Below are positions 44,256-51,815 of a DNA stretch of 64,000 nucleotides, piece by piece. Each line of letters opens with the position of its first letter. The first letter of the stretch is position 1. Both the position numbers and the translations under genes were made by a program. The DNA comes from Pseudomonadota bacterium. GTDB taxonomy: Bacteria > Pseudomonadota > Gammaproteobacteria > Burkholderiales > JABEVD01. A model generated the notes under the pieces. It was not told where the DNA came from, searched no databases, and worked only from the letters and a program-made list of their open reading frames with translations. The stretch covers positions 142,937 through 206,936 of the forward strand of contig JAJZQY010000001.1 of assembly GCA_021806605.1 (NCBI GenBank), written 5' to 3'.

Positions 44256-44624
44256 ATGAGATTGCCTGAACCAACCGGACGAATGACGAACCATGCCGGA
44301 TCCCAGGATGATGTTGCAGCACTGATCCTGGACGAAAATGGCATGATCATCGAGTGCAACCAAGTTGCCGAAAAACTGCTCGGCTATCCTTCGGATGAGC
44401 TCATCCTGCACCATATTTCCATGCTGCTGCCACAACTCGAAGCGGGCCCTCTGATCAAGGGCGACAGAATCAATCCCAAACTCAAGTTTATGTGTCATTG
44501 CGGCCAGTTGTTTCGTGTTCTGGACCGGCAATGCCAATCCTTCTTCAGCGAACTCCATCTCGTTGAGCTGAGCAATCAGGGGGGGCCTGCCCTGAGGGCG
44601 ATTCTTTGCCCGGCAAGTCAATAG
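44256..44624 (+). CDS. Small single-domain PAS protein
   Basis: The 122-residue protein consists almost entirely of one PAS domain: AALILDENGMIIECNQVAEK, LLGYPSDELILHHISMLLPQ and a late beta hairpin FRVLDRQCQSFFSELHLVEL. A short N-terminal tail precedes it. There is no output domain, so it may be a partner of another sensor protein, or a remnant of a longer sensor. AGGGGG is six bases ahead of the ATG. It lies 82 bases upstream of glgP on the same strand. Confidence 0.78.
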   Translation: MRLPEPTGRMTNHAGSQDDVAALILDENGMIIECNQVAEKLLGYPSDELILHHISMLLPQLEAGPLIKGDRINPKLKFMCHCGQLFRVLDRQCQSFFSELHLVELSNQGGPALRAILCPASQ

Positions 44625-44706
44625 CGATGGGATGCTCCCATGGCTGCATAATTTAGTGGTTTAATGTCGGCATATCGATAACGTGACACTCCATAAGGGG
44701 CAAGCC

Positions 44707-47190
44707 ATGAACAAGCGCAAGCATTCCAGGCCGGATTTTTTCCATTACGAAAAACTCGGGCTGGATGCCCAGACTATCCGACATTCGCTCGCCAATCGGC
44801 TGACCTACACCATAGGCAAGGATCCCGTGACCGCCACCGATCGGGACTGGTTCCTTGCACTCGCCTATGCCGTAAGGGACAGACTCGCCGAGCGATGGAT
44901 GGAAACCATGCGCAGCTATTACCGGGAAGATGCCAAGCGGGTCTACTACTTTTCCTTGGAATTTCTCATCGGGCGCATGCTGGTGAACAGCATGAGCAAT
45001 GTCGGGTTTTACGATGAATGCCTGAAGGCCTTGGACGAACTGGGGCTGGACATCGAAGAGCTGCGCGAAGTCGAACCCGATGCGGCGCTGGGCAACGGCG
45101 GCCTGGGGCGCCTCGCAGCCTGCTTTCTCGACTCCATGGCGACGCTCGGGCTGCCAGGCTACGGCTGCGGAATACGTTACGAATACGGCATGTTCAACCA
45201 GCGCATCGAGAACGGCTGCCAGATCGAGCATCCCGACAACTGGCTGCGTTATGGCAATCCTTGGGAGTTCGCACGTCCCGAAGTACTCCACCCGGTCAAA
45301 TTCTTCGGGCGCGTCATGGAGTATGCCGAGGAAGATGGGCGCATCCATTATCATTGGATAGATGCAGAAGAAGTCATGGCGATGGCCTACGATACGCCGG
45401 TTCCCGGCTATGGCAACGATGTCGTGAACAACATGCGGCTTTGGTCGGCGAAAGCAACCCGCGATTTCGATCTCAGGTATTTCAATGAAGGCAATTACAT
45501 CAAAGCGGTGGAAGAAAAGGACGACTCCGAAAACCTTTCGAAAGTGCTTTACCCCGACGATCACACGCTTATGGGGCGCGAATTGCGCCTCAAGCAGCAA
45601 TACTTCTTCGTCAGCGCATCCCTGCAGGATATCCTGCATCGATATTGCAAATACCACAGCGGCTTCGCCGAATTCCCGAACAAGGTCGCAATCCAGCTCA
45701 ACGACACCCACCCTTCGATCGCAATTCCGGAACTGATGCGCCTTTTGATGGATGTTCATCAGATGGGATGGGAAGCTGCCTGGGAGATCACCGTCAGGAC
45801 ATTCTCTTACACCAATCACACGCTCATGCCTGAAGCGCTCGAAACCTGGCCGGTTGCCCTGCTCGAAAAGGTGCTCCCGCGCCACATGCAGATCATCTTC
45901 GAAATCAACCATCGCTTTCTGAAGGATGTCATGCATCATCATCCTGGGGATGTCGAGCTGACGAAGCGCATGTCGATCATTGCTGAGCAAGAAGAAAGGC
46001 ACATCCGCATGGCTCACCTTGCCATCGTCGGCAGCCACAAGGTGAACGGCGTGGCGCGCATTCACACAGAATTGATGAAAAGCACGATTTTTGCCGACTT
46101 CGACCGATTCTTCCCTGGCAAGATCGTCAACATGACCAACGGCGTCACTCCCAGGCTCTGGCTCAAGCAGGCGAACCCGCTCCTGGCTGAACTGATCTCC
46201 TCGCACATCGGCGATGGCTGGCCGGCAGACCTCGATCAGCTCGAAAAGCTGGTTCCGCTTGCCGACAACCCCAGGTTCCGCAAGGCATTCCGTGCAGTCA
46301 AGCTGGCCAACAAGAAGCGACTGGCGACGCTCATCAAAAAACACATGGAGATAGACGTCGACCCGAATTCGTTGTTCGACGTTCAGGTCAAGCGCATCCA
46401 CGAATACAAGCGGCAACTGCTCAGCGTGCTGCATATCGTCACGCGCTACAACCAGATTCGGCACAATCCGGGATCGGATATCGTGCCGCGCACCGTGATT
46501 TTCGGAGGCAAGGCCGCGCCCGGCTATGCCATGGCCAAGCTCGTCATCCGGCTGATCAACGACGTGGCCGACATCGTCAACAACGATCCTGCGGTAAACG
46601 GCCGGCTCAAGGTCGTGTTCATCCCCAATTACGATGTTTCCACGGCGCTCGACATCATTCCTGCCGCAGACCTATCCGAGCAGATATCGACTGCGGGAAC
46701 CGAGGCTTCCGGCACCGGCAACATGAAGCTGTCCATGAACGGGGCATTAACCATCGGCACGCTTGACGGCGCCAACGTCGAAATACGAGAAGAAGTCGGG
46801 GAGGACAACATCTTCATCTTCGGGCTGACCGCAGAAGAGGTCGCCGAAAGCTATCTGCGGGATCACCACCCCTGGAACGATTATTGGGAAAATCCGAAGC
46901 TCAAGGAAGTGCTGGACATGATCGGCTCGGGCTACTTTTCCCCCACCGAACCAGATTGCTACATGCCCATCATCAGCGCCCTCACCCAAAACGGCGACCG
47001 CTACCGACTGCTCGCGGATTACGACGCCTATATCGGCTGCCAGGCCAGGGTCGACGAGCTGTATCGCGACAGCGACGAATGGTCCCGCAAGGCCATACTG
47101 AATGTCGCCAGGATGGGCAAATTCTCGAGCGACCGCACCATAGGGGAGTATGCCGAGCAAATATGGGGAATCGAGCCGGTTTCGAGGTAG
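44707..47190 (+). CDS. glgP: Glycogen/alpha-glucan phosphorylase
   Basis: The 827-residue enzyme releases glucose-1-phosphate from glycogen or maltodextrin. It has the family landmarks YYFSLEFLIGRMLVNSM (about 90), LGNGGLGRLAACFLDSMATL, IQLNDTHPSIAIPELMR, RIHEYKRQLL and the PLP-lysine region EASGTGNMKLSMNGALTIGT near residue 670. The start at 44707 is supported by AAGGGG at six bases; another ATG eight codons upstream is not. Length is normal for bacterial GlgP. No other glycogen gene is within the window. Confidence 0.97.
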   Translation: MNKRKHSRPDFFHYEKLGLDAQTIRHSLANRLTYTIGKDPVTATDRDWFLALAYAVRDRLAERWMETMRSYYREDAKRVYYFSLEFLIGRMLVNSMSNVGFYDECLKALDELGLDIEELREVEPDAALGNGGLGRLAACFLDSMATLGLPGYGCGIRYEYGMFNQRIENGCQIEHPDNWLRYGNPWEFARPEVLHPVKFFGRVMEYAEEDGRIHYHWIDAEEVMAMAYDTPVPGYGNDVVNNMRLWSAKATRDFDLRYFNEGNYIKAVEEKDDSENLSKVLYPDDHTLMGRELRLKQQYFFVSASLQDILHRYCKYHSGFAEFPNKVAIQLNDTHPSIAIPELMRLLMDVHQMGWEAAWEITVRTFSYTNHTLMPEALETWPVALLEKVLPRHMQIIFEINHRFLKDVMHHHPGDVELTKRMSIIAEQEERHIRMAHLAIVGSHKVNGVARIHTELMKSTIFADFDRFFPGKIVNMTNGVTPRLWLKQANPLLAELISSHIGDGWPADLDQLEKLVPLADNPRFRKAFRAVKLANKKRLATLIKKHMEIDVDPNSLFDVQVKRIHEYKRQLLSVLHIVTRYNQIRHNPGSDIVPRTVIFGGKAAPGYAMAKLVIRLINDVADIVNNDPAVNGRLKVVFIPNYDVSTALDIIPAADLSEQISTAGTEASGTGNMKLSMNGALTIGTLDGANVEIREEVGEDNIFIFGLTAEEVAESYLRDHHPWNDYWENPKLKEVLDMIGSGYFSPTEPDCYMPIISALTQNGDRYRLLADYDAYIGCQARVDELYRDSDEWSRKAILNVARMGKFSSDRTIGEYAEQIWGIEPVSR

Positions 47191-47365: not shown

Positions 47366-50119
47366 TCATGGCGCGGTCTGCATTGGCGCCAGATCGGGTT
47401 CGCCGCAATGCTCAAGGATCGCCGTTCTCGCCGCATCGCGCAGCATGATGGCGGATTGCCATCCCGCTCCTTCAGGAAGAATCGGATCCCCGATCCACAC
47501 TTCCGCTTTTCCCCTGCGGGGGAACCATCTGCCATCTCTCAGGATGGAGCGCGTTCCCTTCAACGCAATCGGGATCACGGCGGCGCCGGCATGGGAAGCC
47601 GCGAGGAACGCCCCCATGCGGAACCCGGCAAGCCCGGGCATTCTGGTAAAAGTCCCTTCGGGGAAAAAAATCATGGAGTGTCCGGATTCAACTGCTTTCC
47701 CCAGGCGATTCGCATCCTCCCCAAGCCCCCCGCGTTCGACGAAATCCGCGCCCAGGTGTCTGAGATAATGCCTGGAAACGAAGGATTCCAGCAGTTCCTT
47801 CTTGGCGACGAAATTGAAAAAGCCGCTTGGCGCGAGATTCCCGGGAAGCGCCGCGACCAGAACGATGCCGTCGATGTAGCTCGCATGGTTGGCGACGAGA
47901 ACCGACGGTTTGCATTCCACGTTCCCGACCCCGTCAATGCCGAGTGATATTCCGGACAGACTGACAAAAATTCGCGCGCAGGCCCGACTCACCTGCCAGC
48001 TCCATGCCGAGCTGGAAGAAGTCACCGCAAAAATCCACGCGACGGGCGCAATCGTCCAGAAAAGAAACCAGACATAAGCCGCGTAAGAAAATCCGATTGC
48101 AGCCCTCGACAGCCGCCTCAACTGCGGGAGGAATCCAGCCATGACAAGACGCAGATAATTCAGACGCCGCTTTTTAAAACCTTCTAGATAGCGTGCCCGG
48201 CTTGCGGATCTTCTGATTTTCCCGCTGGAAGTTTTCAGCACGGTATGCGGGGGAACCAGCAGGATTTCATCGGGAGGTTCTCCGAGCACATCAACCACGG
48301 CATTGCTGACGGCCTCCCTGAGGGCATCGAGCGCCTCTTTCTCCCGGGTCTCGGCCATCACCACGAGACGCTCGGTGCCGCCTCTCTGCACGCCAAATAC
48401 CGCGACGCAACCCCGCCTAACCCCGGGCAGGTTGCCCACCGCCTCCTCGGTCTCATAGGGATAGATATTCCTGCCGGCCCGGATGATGACATCTTTGGCG
48501 CGCCCGGTGAGGTATATCTCGCCTTGCGCAATATAGGCGTAATCCCCTGAATCCAGCCAACCATCGTGGAAAAGTCTGGCGGTTTCCTCGCAATTCCGCA
48601 AATATCCCCGCGTGGAGGAAGGCCCCTTGAATTCCAGCTTGCCTTCCTGGCGATCCCCTACCTCCCTTCCCGTCTCGTCCACGATCCTGACCTGATGAAG
48701 AGGCAGTGGCAAGCCACAGGAAACGAAAGCAAGTCCATCTACTTTGGAAGGAACGGCCTTCCCCGTTCGCATGAAACGCTCATGATCGATCCGGTCTATT
48801 TTAGGACCGCGCCCGACAGGAGAGAAAGCCAGTCCGACCGACGATTCGGCGAGTCCGTAAACAGGGCACATCGCATTTTCCTTAAAGCCGAATTTTCCGA
48901 ATTTTTTAGAAAAACCCAGGACCACCTCCACGCTGACGGGTTCCGCCCCGTTGAAAGCCATACGCAAACTGGAAAGATCGATTCCCTCCAACGCCTTCTC
49001 GTCGATTTTGGCAAGGCAAATCGCATAGCCGAAATTTGGGGAAGCGGTCAGGGTCGCGCGATGCCTTGCAATGCTGCTGAGCCAGCGCGAAGGGTTTGAA
49101 AGGAAAGTCATCGGCGACATGACGATGTAACGGCAGGCGTGATAAAGGCTGCCGAGCCAGGCCCCGATCAGCCCCATGTCGTGGTAGAGCGGAAGCCAAC
49201 TCACGAAAACATCCGAGTGCCCGACCTGGGCAGCGAGCCCCATGGCGCGAATATTCGCAAGCAAGTTGGCATGGCTCAGCATCACCCCCTTGGGGTTTCC
49301 CGTGCTTCCCGAAGTGTATTGCAGGAGCGCGATATCTTCCGCATCCAGAACCGGCAATGCATGGACTTTGGCAGAAGATAGCTCGTTCGGCGTGACGACT
49401 TCCCGCATCGACTCGACCTGAAGCCCGAGGAGTTTTGCAAGCCTGAGCGCATCGCCGAAAGTGACCAGCATGACAGCCTGCGCATTGGACAGTATGCCGA
49501 CATGACGCTTCAGATGATCCTCCATCTGGGAAAGGCGGAAAGGTGGGTAGATCGGTACCGGAATGCATCCCGCAAGAAGTATCCCAAAAAAACCGAAAAA
49601 ATAATCCGCTCCCGTGGGAAGCATGATGGCTATGGATTCTCCGGGTATCCTTCCCCGATCGATGAGGCCATTGGCGATCTTTTCTGCGCCAGATTTGAGT
49701 TCCGCATAACTGATGCGCACGTCCTCTTTCGCCCCTTCGAACAGGATGTGGGTGCGGTCCGGATGGCGTCCCGCATGCCAGTCGAGAACATCCGCGAGGG
49801 TCCGTGCATTGAGCGGAAACCCGATGCCATCCGTCTCGGACTCGAAGACTGCCCTCCTTTCGCCAGACAACTGAGGCATGCCGAGCGCATTCAGAAGATC
49901 CCTGGGCGTTTCCGCTCTTGCCAGCGATTCTTCAGGCAATTGCACCCCGAAGGCGCGCTCTATCCTGAGCAGAAGCTCGATCTTGGCGAGGCTGTCCAGA
50001 CCCAGATCGCGTTCCAGAGACATGTCGAGCGTCGGGGAGACAATCCTTGAAGCACGCGTTTCTTTCAAGAGTCCGGCGATGATATCGAGAAGCCTGCCAG
50101 AATCTGGCCCTGTTTCCAT
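47366..50119 (-). CDS. ACP - AMP-ligase - acyltransferase fusion protein
   Basis: The 917-residue protein joins three modules. Residues 5-80 are an acyl carrier domain with phosphopantetheine Ser43 in RDLGLDSLAKIELL. Residues about 105-640 are an AMP-forming acyl ligase of the fatty-acyl-AMP ligase type (LLQYTSGSTGNPKGVMLSHA, WLPLYHDMGLIGAWLG, YGLAESSVGLAFSP, DSGDYAYI). A hydrophobic segment (YAAYVWFLFWTIAPVAWIF) leads to a PlsC-type acyltransferase with NHASYID (HX4D) and FFPEGTFTR. The design suggests that a fatty acid is activated, loaded on the ACP arm and passed to an acceptor at the membrane, possibly a lysophospholipid or other lipid. The order is the reverse of Aas proteins. GGGAG is six bases from the ATG; cysM is 96 bases upstream. 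Confidence 0.88.
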   Translation of the reverse strand: METGPDSGRLLDIIAGLLKETRASRIVSPTLDMSLERDLGLDSLAKIELLLRIERAFGVQLPEESLARAETPRDLLNALGMPQLSGERRAVFESETDGIGFPLNARTLADVLDWHAGRHPDRTHILFEGAKEDVRISYAELKSGAEKIANGLIDRGRIPGESIAIMLPTGADYFFGFFGILLAGCIPVPIYPPFRLSQMEDHLKRHVGILSNAQAVMLVTFGDALRLAKLLGLQVESMREVVTPNELSSAKVHALPVLDAEDIALLQYTSGSTGNPKGVMLSHANLLANIRAMGLAAQVGHSDVFVSWLPLYHDMGLIGAWLGSLYHACRYIVMSPMTFLSNPSRWLSSIARHRATLTASPNFGYAICLAKIDEKALEGIDLSSLRMAFNGAEPVSVEVVLGFSKKFGKFGFKENAMCPVYGLAESSVGLAFSPVGRGPKIDRIDHERFMRTGKAVPSKVDGLAFVSCGLPLPLHQVRIVDETGREVGDRQEGKLEFKGPSSTRGYLRNCEETARLFHDGWLDSGDYAYIAQGEIYLTGRAKDVIIRAGRNIYPYETEEAVGNLPGVRRGCVAVFGVQRGGTERLVVMAETREKEALDALREAVSNAVVDVLGEPPDEILLVPPHTVLKTSSGKIRRSASRARYLEGFKKRRLNYLRLVMAGFLPQLRRLSRAAIGFSYAAYVWFLFWTIAPVAWIFAVTSSSSAWSWQVSRACARIFVSLSGISLGIDGVGNVECKPSVLVANHASYIDGIVLVAALPGNLAPSGFFNFVAKKELLESFVSRHYLRHLGADFVERGGLGEDANRLGKAVESGHSMIFFPEGTFTRMPGLAGFRMGAFLAASHAGAAVIPIALKGTRSILRDGRWFPRRGKAEVWIGDPILPEGAGWQSAIMLRDAARTAILEHCGEPDLAPMQTAP

Positions 50120-51152: not shown

Positions 51153-51815
51153 TTACAGCGCCCTGGCCACGATTTCGCCGATCCATGCGGCGATGTCCCC
51201 GATTTCATCCTGGCATACCGAATGAGCCATGGCGTAGTCGCACCATCTCACCTCATGCCCCAGGTTCGCCAGCGCGTCTCTGGAAGCCCTTCCTGCCGAA
51301 ATCGGGATGACGTCGTCCATTGTCCCGTGCGCCATGAAGAGGGGCGTTTCCGAATTGGCCGGATGGGCCTCTTGCCTCAGGGAGGTTGCCAGGGGAAGAT
51401 AGGCCGAAAGGGCCATTATCCCGGCAAGCCTTTCAGGACAACGCAAGCCTGCATACAGAACAGCTGCGCCCCCCTGGGAGAAGCCGGCAAGAAGAACATG
51501 ATCGGAAGCTATGCCCCTTTCCTTCTCCCTGGCGATGAATTCAGAAATGCGCTGCTGCGTATCCAGCATGCCTTCCCTGTCCTCGCCAGATTTCAGATCC
51601 AGCGAATAAATGTCATACCAGGCGCGCATCCTGTAGCCACCGTTCAAGGTGACGGGTCTGATCGGCGCATGGGGAAAAATGAAGCGCATGCCCGGCAGGG
51701 AAAGGGCCTCCGCAACCGGGACGAAGTCGTTTCCGTCCGCTCCCAGTCCGTGCAGCCAGATGACCGAAAAAGCGGGGTTTGAAGAGGTTTCGAATTCGAT
51801 GAAGGGGAGTGTCAT
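51153..51815 (-). CDS. Carboxylesterase / phospholipase family alpha-beta hydrolase
   Basis: The 220-residue protein matches the carboxylesterase 2 family: VIWLHGLGADGNDFVPVAE, GMRFIFPHAPIRPVTLNGG, nucleophile Ser in LLAGFSQGGAAVLYAGL, Asp in AHGTMDDVIPIS and His in YAMAHSVCQDEI. The start at 51815 (MTLPFIEFE) is chosen; the 33 extra residues of the open frame overlap the divergent promoter region. It hydrolyses small acyl esters or lysophospholipids. It is divergent from the Tat-exported protein gene, 55 bases away. Confidence 0.92.
   Translation of the reverse strand: MTLPFIEFETSSNPAFSVIWLHGLGADGNDFVPVAEALSLPGMRFIFPHAPIRPVTLNGGYRMRAWYDIYSLDLKSGEDREGMLDTQQRISEFIAREKERGIASDHVLLAGFSQGGAAVLYAGLRCPERLAGIMALSAYLPLATSLRQEAHPANSETPLFMAHGTMDDVIPISAGRASRDALANLGHEVRWCDYAMAHSVCQDEIGDIAAWIGEIVARAL

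Follow-up and report, generated by a model that had tools for sequence, protein, structure and literature searches.

A conserved tri-domain protein that looks like an independently assembled counterpart of the phospholipid-repair enzyme Aas

What is the task of a protein that carries an acyl carrier protein (ACP) domain, a fatty acyl-AMP ligase (FAAL) and a PlsC-type acyltransferase on a single chain? The question is raised by a gene of 917 codons at positions 47366..50119 (minus strand, as for all features within it) of a 64,000-nucleotide stretch of DNA, here called the window, which covers positions 142,937 to 206,936 of contig JAJZQY010000001.1 (assembly GCA_021806605.1) from a bacterium of the Burkholderiales. 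The tri-domain enzyme is real and conserved and probably works like Aas of E. coli, yet its sequence places it outside the Aas family; it looks like an independently assembled counterpart of that phospholipid-repair enzyme. We lean, with somewhat more confidence than doubt, towards a membrane-associated, single-chain, Aas-like lysophospholipid acyltransferase/acyl-ACP synthetase with a built-in ACP, which would make its own acyl donor. If true, many bacteria without a recognised Aas carry a re-acylation enzyme (no Aas match at E ≤ 1e-150 was found in 48 of the 65 genomes with the tri-domain gene in our class sample), and the same activity pair has been assembled convergently, using another type of ligase and joining the carrier covalently to the chain.

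Three domains on one chain and the identity of the ligase

The gene is defined by its open reading frame (ORF), by Pfam, by full-length conservation elsewhere and by an AlphaFold model (mean pLDDT 88.3) built from 75 aligned proteins, which share 41-92% identity with the window protein. An earlier note on this DNA, made from the sequence alone, had claimed an ACP, a ligase and a PlsC acyltransferase in one polypeptide, and the domain search bears this out: PP-binding (PF00550, residues 9-79, 49883..50095, E 2e-10), AMP-binding (residues 113-507, E 5e-72) and PF01553 (residues 737-853, 47561..47911, E 2e-16) were all found above their curated cut-offs, in the order ACP, ligase, acyltransferase, which is opposite to that of Aas as the note had stated. 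Ser43 (codon 49991..49993), the predicted carrier-arm site expected to bear 4'-phosphopantetheine and the residue named in the note, stands in D42-S43-L44. Lysine K634 of LKTSSGK (48218..48220) is presumably the catalytic lysine of A10 type, and the HX4D motif of the acyltransferase extends from H745 to D750 (47870..47887). S43, K634, H745, D750 and E821 are identical in 75/75 aligned proteins; the degenerate catalytic residues that would have spoken against the note's reading were thus not seen. Moreover, the gene is under purifying selection. Compared with three same-genus orthologues, dN/dS is 0.155-0.183 for the whole gene and 0.11-0.34 for single domains, indicating that all three domains are maintained. 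The only PHROGs matched were an acyl carrier protein and families still uncharacterised.

The ligase domain (residues about 107-650, 48170..49801) has FAALs as its nearest solved relatives in a sequence search of the PDB. In a fold search, FAALs including FadD32 filled ranks 1-7 with 3PBK on top (E 6e-51), while adenylation domains of nonribosomal peptide synthetases (NRPS) started at rank 12 and coenzyme A (CoA) ligases at rank 41. The best NCBIfam model was the fatty acyl-AMP ligase PRK09192, with 405 bits under a curated cut-off of 600. Region 426-466, where we presume the FAAL insertion to lie, aligns with 3PBK, the FAAL used for this comparison, with a three-residue gap. According to passages of PMC8460268, FAALs reject CoA by bulky pocket residues and a FAAL-specific helix. 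The residues W224, M231 and F279 given there for EcFAAL align with W308, M315 and F363 of the window protein, when it is considered that the chain index of 3PBK is one lower than the residue numbers of that paper; W308 and F363 occur in 75/75 rows and M315 in 72/75. The helix as defined in the same source corresponds to residues 336-342 (49094..49114), which align without gap with T252-R258 of 3PBK, and the model shows a helix at 336-341. By these pocket residues and the helix, the ligase domain resembles the known FAALs (3PBK, FadD32, the FAAL of olefin synthase).

A ligase tree of 33 rows gave a similar picture. Nineteen tri-domain ligases cluster with four stand-alone FAAL-type ligases (the best NCBIfam models of the latter are FAAL-like, all below cut-off), and nine Aas-type ligases form a separate long branch with support 100/100, in a tree without one of the two intended CoA-ligase references, two of the six for FAALs and the Aas of locus L140, and with thin outgroups, as the one CoA ligase kept is a very long branch. 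Judged from these comparisons, the ligase is a FAAL whose branch differs from that of the E. coli Aas ligase.

The usual role of FAALs is to serve polyketide synthase (PKS) and NRPS systems, as stated in passages of PMC8460268 and PMC11837247. The tri-domain protein might in this regard provide the starter unit or a tailoring step for a dedicated lipid or natural product, with its acyltransferase passing the chain to a specialised acceptor, and the surroundings of two copies would fit: the plasmid copy L168 belongs to a row of genes with a second AMP-binding gene, acsA, pyruvate dehydrogenase (PDH) genes and an ACP, and L169 has an AMP-binding gene upstream. The fusion partner here is a lysolipid acyltransferase instead of PKS/NRPS modules. 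Against such a role, no PKS/NRPS cluster was seen, by eye, among the neighbours common to at least 4 of 80 named loci (the best 80 of at least 590 stretches encoding some relative, several ended by contig edges), and the gene contexts vary widely. We regard this explanation as quite improbable.

The favoured reading of an Aas-like enzyme with its own carrier would proceed in three steps. The FAAL domain would, by homology, adenylate a free fatty acid with ATP. Ser43 of the same chain would then receive the acyl group on its phosphopantetheine arm, as suggested by the FAAL features together with the fusion, because the pocket for CoA appears blocked. Finally, the acyl-ACP would swing to the PlsC-type domain, where the HX4D histidine would esterify a lysolipid on the cytoplasmic side of the inner membrane. 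A 38-residue helix in the model (residues 663-700, 48020..48133), ahead of the acyltransferase domain, possibly makes the membrane contact. The self-contained route of activation, loading and acylation, which had been proposed in the earlier note, appears thus well supported by sequence and predicted structure.

The acyltransferase domain and its likely acceptor

In the acyltransferase domain (ACYLTRANSFERASE), the HX4D motif is present in 71/71 long proteins from the named loci, to which all following motif counts over 71 refer. Motif III reads FPEGTF in the window protein (residues 819-824, 47648..47665) and in 43/71; the others show FAEGTF, FPEGTL and similar versions, with FPEGRR in one row. 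The exact PEGT occurs in 52/71, near variants such as FAEGTF making up the rest, and the EGTR of PlsC in 0/71. The domain thus shows the motifs NHX4D and FPEGT expected of the PlsC/LPLAT family (PF01553). For comparison, E. coli PlsC has FPEGTRS, the PlsC-like and OlsA-like proteins of the own genome have FPEGTRI and FPEGTTS, respectively, and Aas-type proteins have FPEGR (9/9). The arginine of EGTR probably holds the phosphate of lysophosphatidic acid (LPA), and EGTR in motif III presumably marks LPA acyltransferases proper. Three PF01553 proteins were found in the own genome, namely the tri-domain protein, the OlsA-like protein (beside an OlsB-like gene) and the PlsC-like protein; these calls of PlsC, OlsA and OlsB type score under the curated cut-offs.

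Two rival explanations differ from the favoured one mainly in the acceptor. First, the enzyme could be a second LPA acyltransferase that produces phosphatidic acid straight from exogenous fatty acid. The general model AGP_acyltrn is the best NCBIfam model for the domain (61 bits, cut-off 103), and PlsC of T. maritima is the sole solved relative found (PDB 5KYM, E 1e-12), which both point in this direction; however, EGTR, present in E. coli PlsC and in the own PlsC-like protein, is missing from all the long relatives, and a separate PlsC-like gene exists in the own genome, making such a role unlikely in our view. Second, the same cis chemistry could act on a lyso-aminolipid such as lyso-ornithine, thereby completing an aminolipid and repairing no phospholipid. 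It would be consistent with the OlsA models, which match the domain with 37 and 33 bits (below cut-off), and with the own OlsA-like protein, likewise lacking EGTR, but the own genome already encodes a distinct OlsB-like/OlsA-like pair, and no N-acyltransferase was recognised in the neighbour clusters of at least 4/80 loci, where all clusters other than that of the transporter described below were named by eye. Hence, we hold the aminolipid variant to be rather improbable.

The likeliest acceptor in the Aas-like reading would be a lysophospholipid (lyso-phosphatidylethanolamine or lyso-phosphatidylglycerol) that PldA-type phospholipases release and that LplT brings across the membrane in this organism, perhaps an ATG22-type transporter in some relatives. 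The own genome encodes an LplT with 522 bits (cut-off 297), which stands alone elsewhere on the contig, outside the window (L171, G000:C82:73358-74515), and contains two partial matches to the PLA1 family of PldA type on different contigs (best E 6e-64). Aas gave no match at E ≤ 1e-150, and a whole-protein search of the own genome found no other acyltransferase-ligase protein. Since the other acyltransferases are PlsC- and OlsA-like, this combination makes the tri-domain protein, by exclusion of the others, the candidate to re-acylate the cargo of LplT. In Burkholderia, LplT is reported as essential for an unexplained reason in the passages seen of PMC5729917. From the lipid remodelling or lipid synthesis pathway considered in the earlier note, remodelling is retained as the best reading, while new synthesis seems less likely than salvage.

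Known salvage systems, transporters and co-occurrence

Aas of E. coli is an acyl-ACP synthetase/2-acyl-glycerophosphoethanolamine acyltransferase that uses acyl-ACP as donor (PMC11416262, in the part available), and lplT and aas are located together in E. coli. The pair of Aas (PRK08043) and LplT resembles the present case by the activity pair on one chain, the PF01553 acyltransferase and the presence of LplT in the own genome. In contrast, the tri-domain protein has the reversed domain order, a built-in ACP, a ligase of another branch and FPEGTF instead of FPEGR. Whole-protein models for Aas recognise it poorly: PRK08633 gave 161 bits against a cut-off of 1221, and PRK08043 and PRK06814 were outside the best 25 of 119 matches. 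The LplT-Aas fusions described by PRK08633 and PRK06814 follow the same logic of single-chain lysolipid salvage and their models show weak matches to the acyltransferase domain, but they carry a transporter where the tri-domain protein carries an ACP, and the ligases differ. In C. trachomatis, the acyl-ACP synthase AasC and the lysophospholipid acyltransferase CT775 are separate proteins of one organism (PMC5693948).

The only recurrent immediate neighbour among the 80 named loci is a transporter of the major facilitator superfamily (MFS) of ATG22 type (PF11700), which adjoins the tri-domain gene in 9/80, with the Pfam assignment confirmed for all nine, gaps of 25-264 bp and all four orientations. 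Six of the nine cases belong to the 71 loci whose flank extends 1.5 kb or more on one side, and the other three (L031, L069, L099) are on shorter contigs. In the class sample, PF11700 also adjoins the gene in G416, G159 and G367, whereas in G124 it is about 1.9 kb off, and a cyclopropane-synthase gene and one more ORF separate the two. Given that about 45% of the class genomes (167/369) possess a PF11700 gene, chance adjacency should be of the order of 1 in several thousand per locus, an estimate that ignores shared ancestry. Co-occurrence across the class genomes is modest: any PF11700 gene was found in 42/65 tri-domain genomes compared to 125/304 others (p 0.0009), and matches to a clade-2 profile (E ≤ 1e-90) in 14/65 compared to 28/304 (p 0.009), both with phylogeny ignored. 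In a transporter tree of 37 rows, 11 of the 12 tri-domain-linked transporters fall into two clades (7 and 4) and that of L069 into the Aas-linked group; as 16/20 unlinked rows came from tri-domain genomes, this tree tells nothing about frequency. The E. coli LplT and the transporter of L107 show no significant similarity (E 0.38). A fold search of the MFS model for hints on the substrate was uninformative, returning general MFS matches including FLVCR2, LtaA and MFSD2A.

PF11700 genes were also found within 3 kb of at least 7/93 Aas-type genes. In L138, L139, L140, L142 and L144, the ATG22-type MFS lies near Aas-type genes and might be a substitute of LplT; the coding regions of the two abut or overlap in L138 and L139, and another gene separates them in L142. 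PRK06814 is the best model for the Aas-type proteins encoded in L138 and L140, which score below its cut-off, set for longer fused proteins. The bacterial PF11700 members are, as we assume, the UMF1 family of TCDB. The entry for UMF1 is listed with substrate unknown in the part seen of PMC3924187. It is a tentative idea, about which we have more doubt than confidence, that ACP-FAAL-PlsC proteins and PF11700 transporters form a second, independently evolved machine for lysolipid salvage, in which these transporters act as new lysophospholipid flippases that also serve Aas-type enzymes elsewhere. If true, bacterial members of the ATG22-type/UMF1 group would gain a testable function.

Several observations weigh against the salvage role. 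The acyltransferase domain alone is matched by models of PlsC, of Aas and of OlsA, each time under the cut-off (30-47 bits with Aas-type models), hence sequence does not decide between acceptors. The own genome is a metagenome-assembled genome (MAG) of 82% completeness, which makes the absence of Aas provisional; it also lacks a detectable ACPS-family transferase, which the organism must need, and no PF11700 gene was found in it. No MFS neighbour was seen in 71/80 named loci, of which some have little flank. Aas is also present in 17/65 tri-domain genomes compared to 70/304 others (p 0.63), i.e. the two genes occur independently, and a strict replacement of Aas by the tri-domain gene is not supported. 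Among the seven LplT-positive, Aas-negative genomes only the own one has the tri-domain gene, while it is found in 47/275 genomes without LplT and without Aas; hence the pattern of the own genome is not general, and orphan LplT is not a predictor of the tri-domain gene (1/7). LplT occurs in just 8/65 tri-domain genomes. Classical LplT adjoins Aas in 26/33 genomes with both, and no comparable tie of LplT to the tri-domain gene was seen in the class sample. The remaining six of the seven genomes (G056, G093, G139, G195, G237, G282) have LplT but neither Aas (E ≤ 1e-150) nor the tri-domain gene, thus another partner of LplT may exist there.

Distribution and gene surroundings

The architecture is not confined to this genome. 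It occurs in full length in 11/60 genomes, own included (in G059 there is a further fragment, at the edge of a contig), patchily within the genus (5/9 genomes) and in 65/369 genomes of the class sample (E ≤ 1e-200, own included; G087 and G146 gave partial matches), a recurrence that argues against a chance fusion. The only mention in print that was found is one sentence on "a fusion with lysophospholipid acyltransferases", among the concluding remarks of PMC8460268 (2021). A characterisation of the ACP-FAAL-PlsC architecture was not found in a search that left subscription literature largely outside, so that prior work may exist, and the passages seen of PMC11631085 contain no FAAL-lysophospholipid acyltransferase fusion. 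By their titles, the named loci belong mostly to Pseudomonadota and Desulfobacterota-type bacteria, together with Acidobacteria, Planctomycetes, a Nitrospira, Mycobacterium, Rhodococcus and Glycomyces; many are MAGs, for which contamination is possible. The genes of Mycobacterium innocens (L051), Rhodococcus aetherivorans (L071) and Glycomyces buryatensis (L089) encode proteins with 45-49% identity, which suggests transfer across phyla. On plasmids, 9/169 matching records cover at least 80% of the gene length (Methylobacterium, Cupriavidus, Sinorhizobium, Paraburkholderia, Photobacterium), and the three annotated copies among the nine are each labelled only "AMP-binding protein".

The esterase at 51153 and cysM had been suggested as fatty-acid source and metabolic partner, respectively. 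This partnership was rejected, because, in a tblastn search with both against 10 relatives with short flanks (L005-L014) and the 80 named loci, they accompany the gene in just two loci, L005 and L006, both from the same genus as the window; they are absent from the available flank of L007 and L008, which also belong to this genus. The CysM itself is an ordinary one (517 bits, cut-off 413). Other neighbour clusters comprise ABC-ATPase-like proteins (9/80 loci; no more than 1 kb away in 4) and alcohol-dehydrogenase-like proteins (6/80; no more than 1 kb away in 2), both large families, and a further cluster of 6 proved to be an ORF antisense to the tri-domain gene itself. The glycogen gene glgP adjoins the tri-domain gene in the window (44683-47190) and in L005 and lies upstream in L032, and glgA is near it in L030, L033 and L014; their frequency within 10 kb is about that of chance by a rough estimate, thus glycogen genes were dropped as partners and may be a coincidence.

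In L143, a gene of the cyclopropane-fatty-acid synthase family (PF02353; 4095-5231) follows the tri-domain gene after 28 bp, a neighbour that we count in favour of the Aas-like reading. Surroundings resembling stress islands were seen in L167, L168 and L169 (annotated) and in L088 and L052 (by eye), with stress-type neighbours including a universal stress protein, DUF302, phosphoribosyltransferase, P-type ATPase and acsA/PDH/ACP. These neighbours led us to consider the low-oxygen (lxa) locus of Burkholderia, for which the literature passages seen give no such enzyme. Within the window, a protein with a transglutaminase core (PF01841; 51871-52914) is encoded divergently from the esterase gene, the two ORFs overlapping by 44 bases, and a short stand-alone PAS-domain protein of 122 aa (44256-44624) follows a tRNA-Leu.

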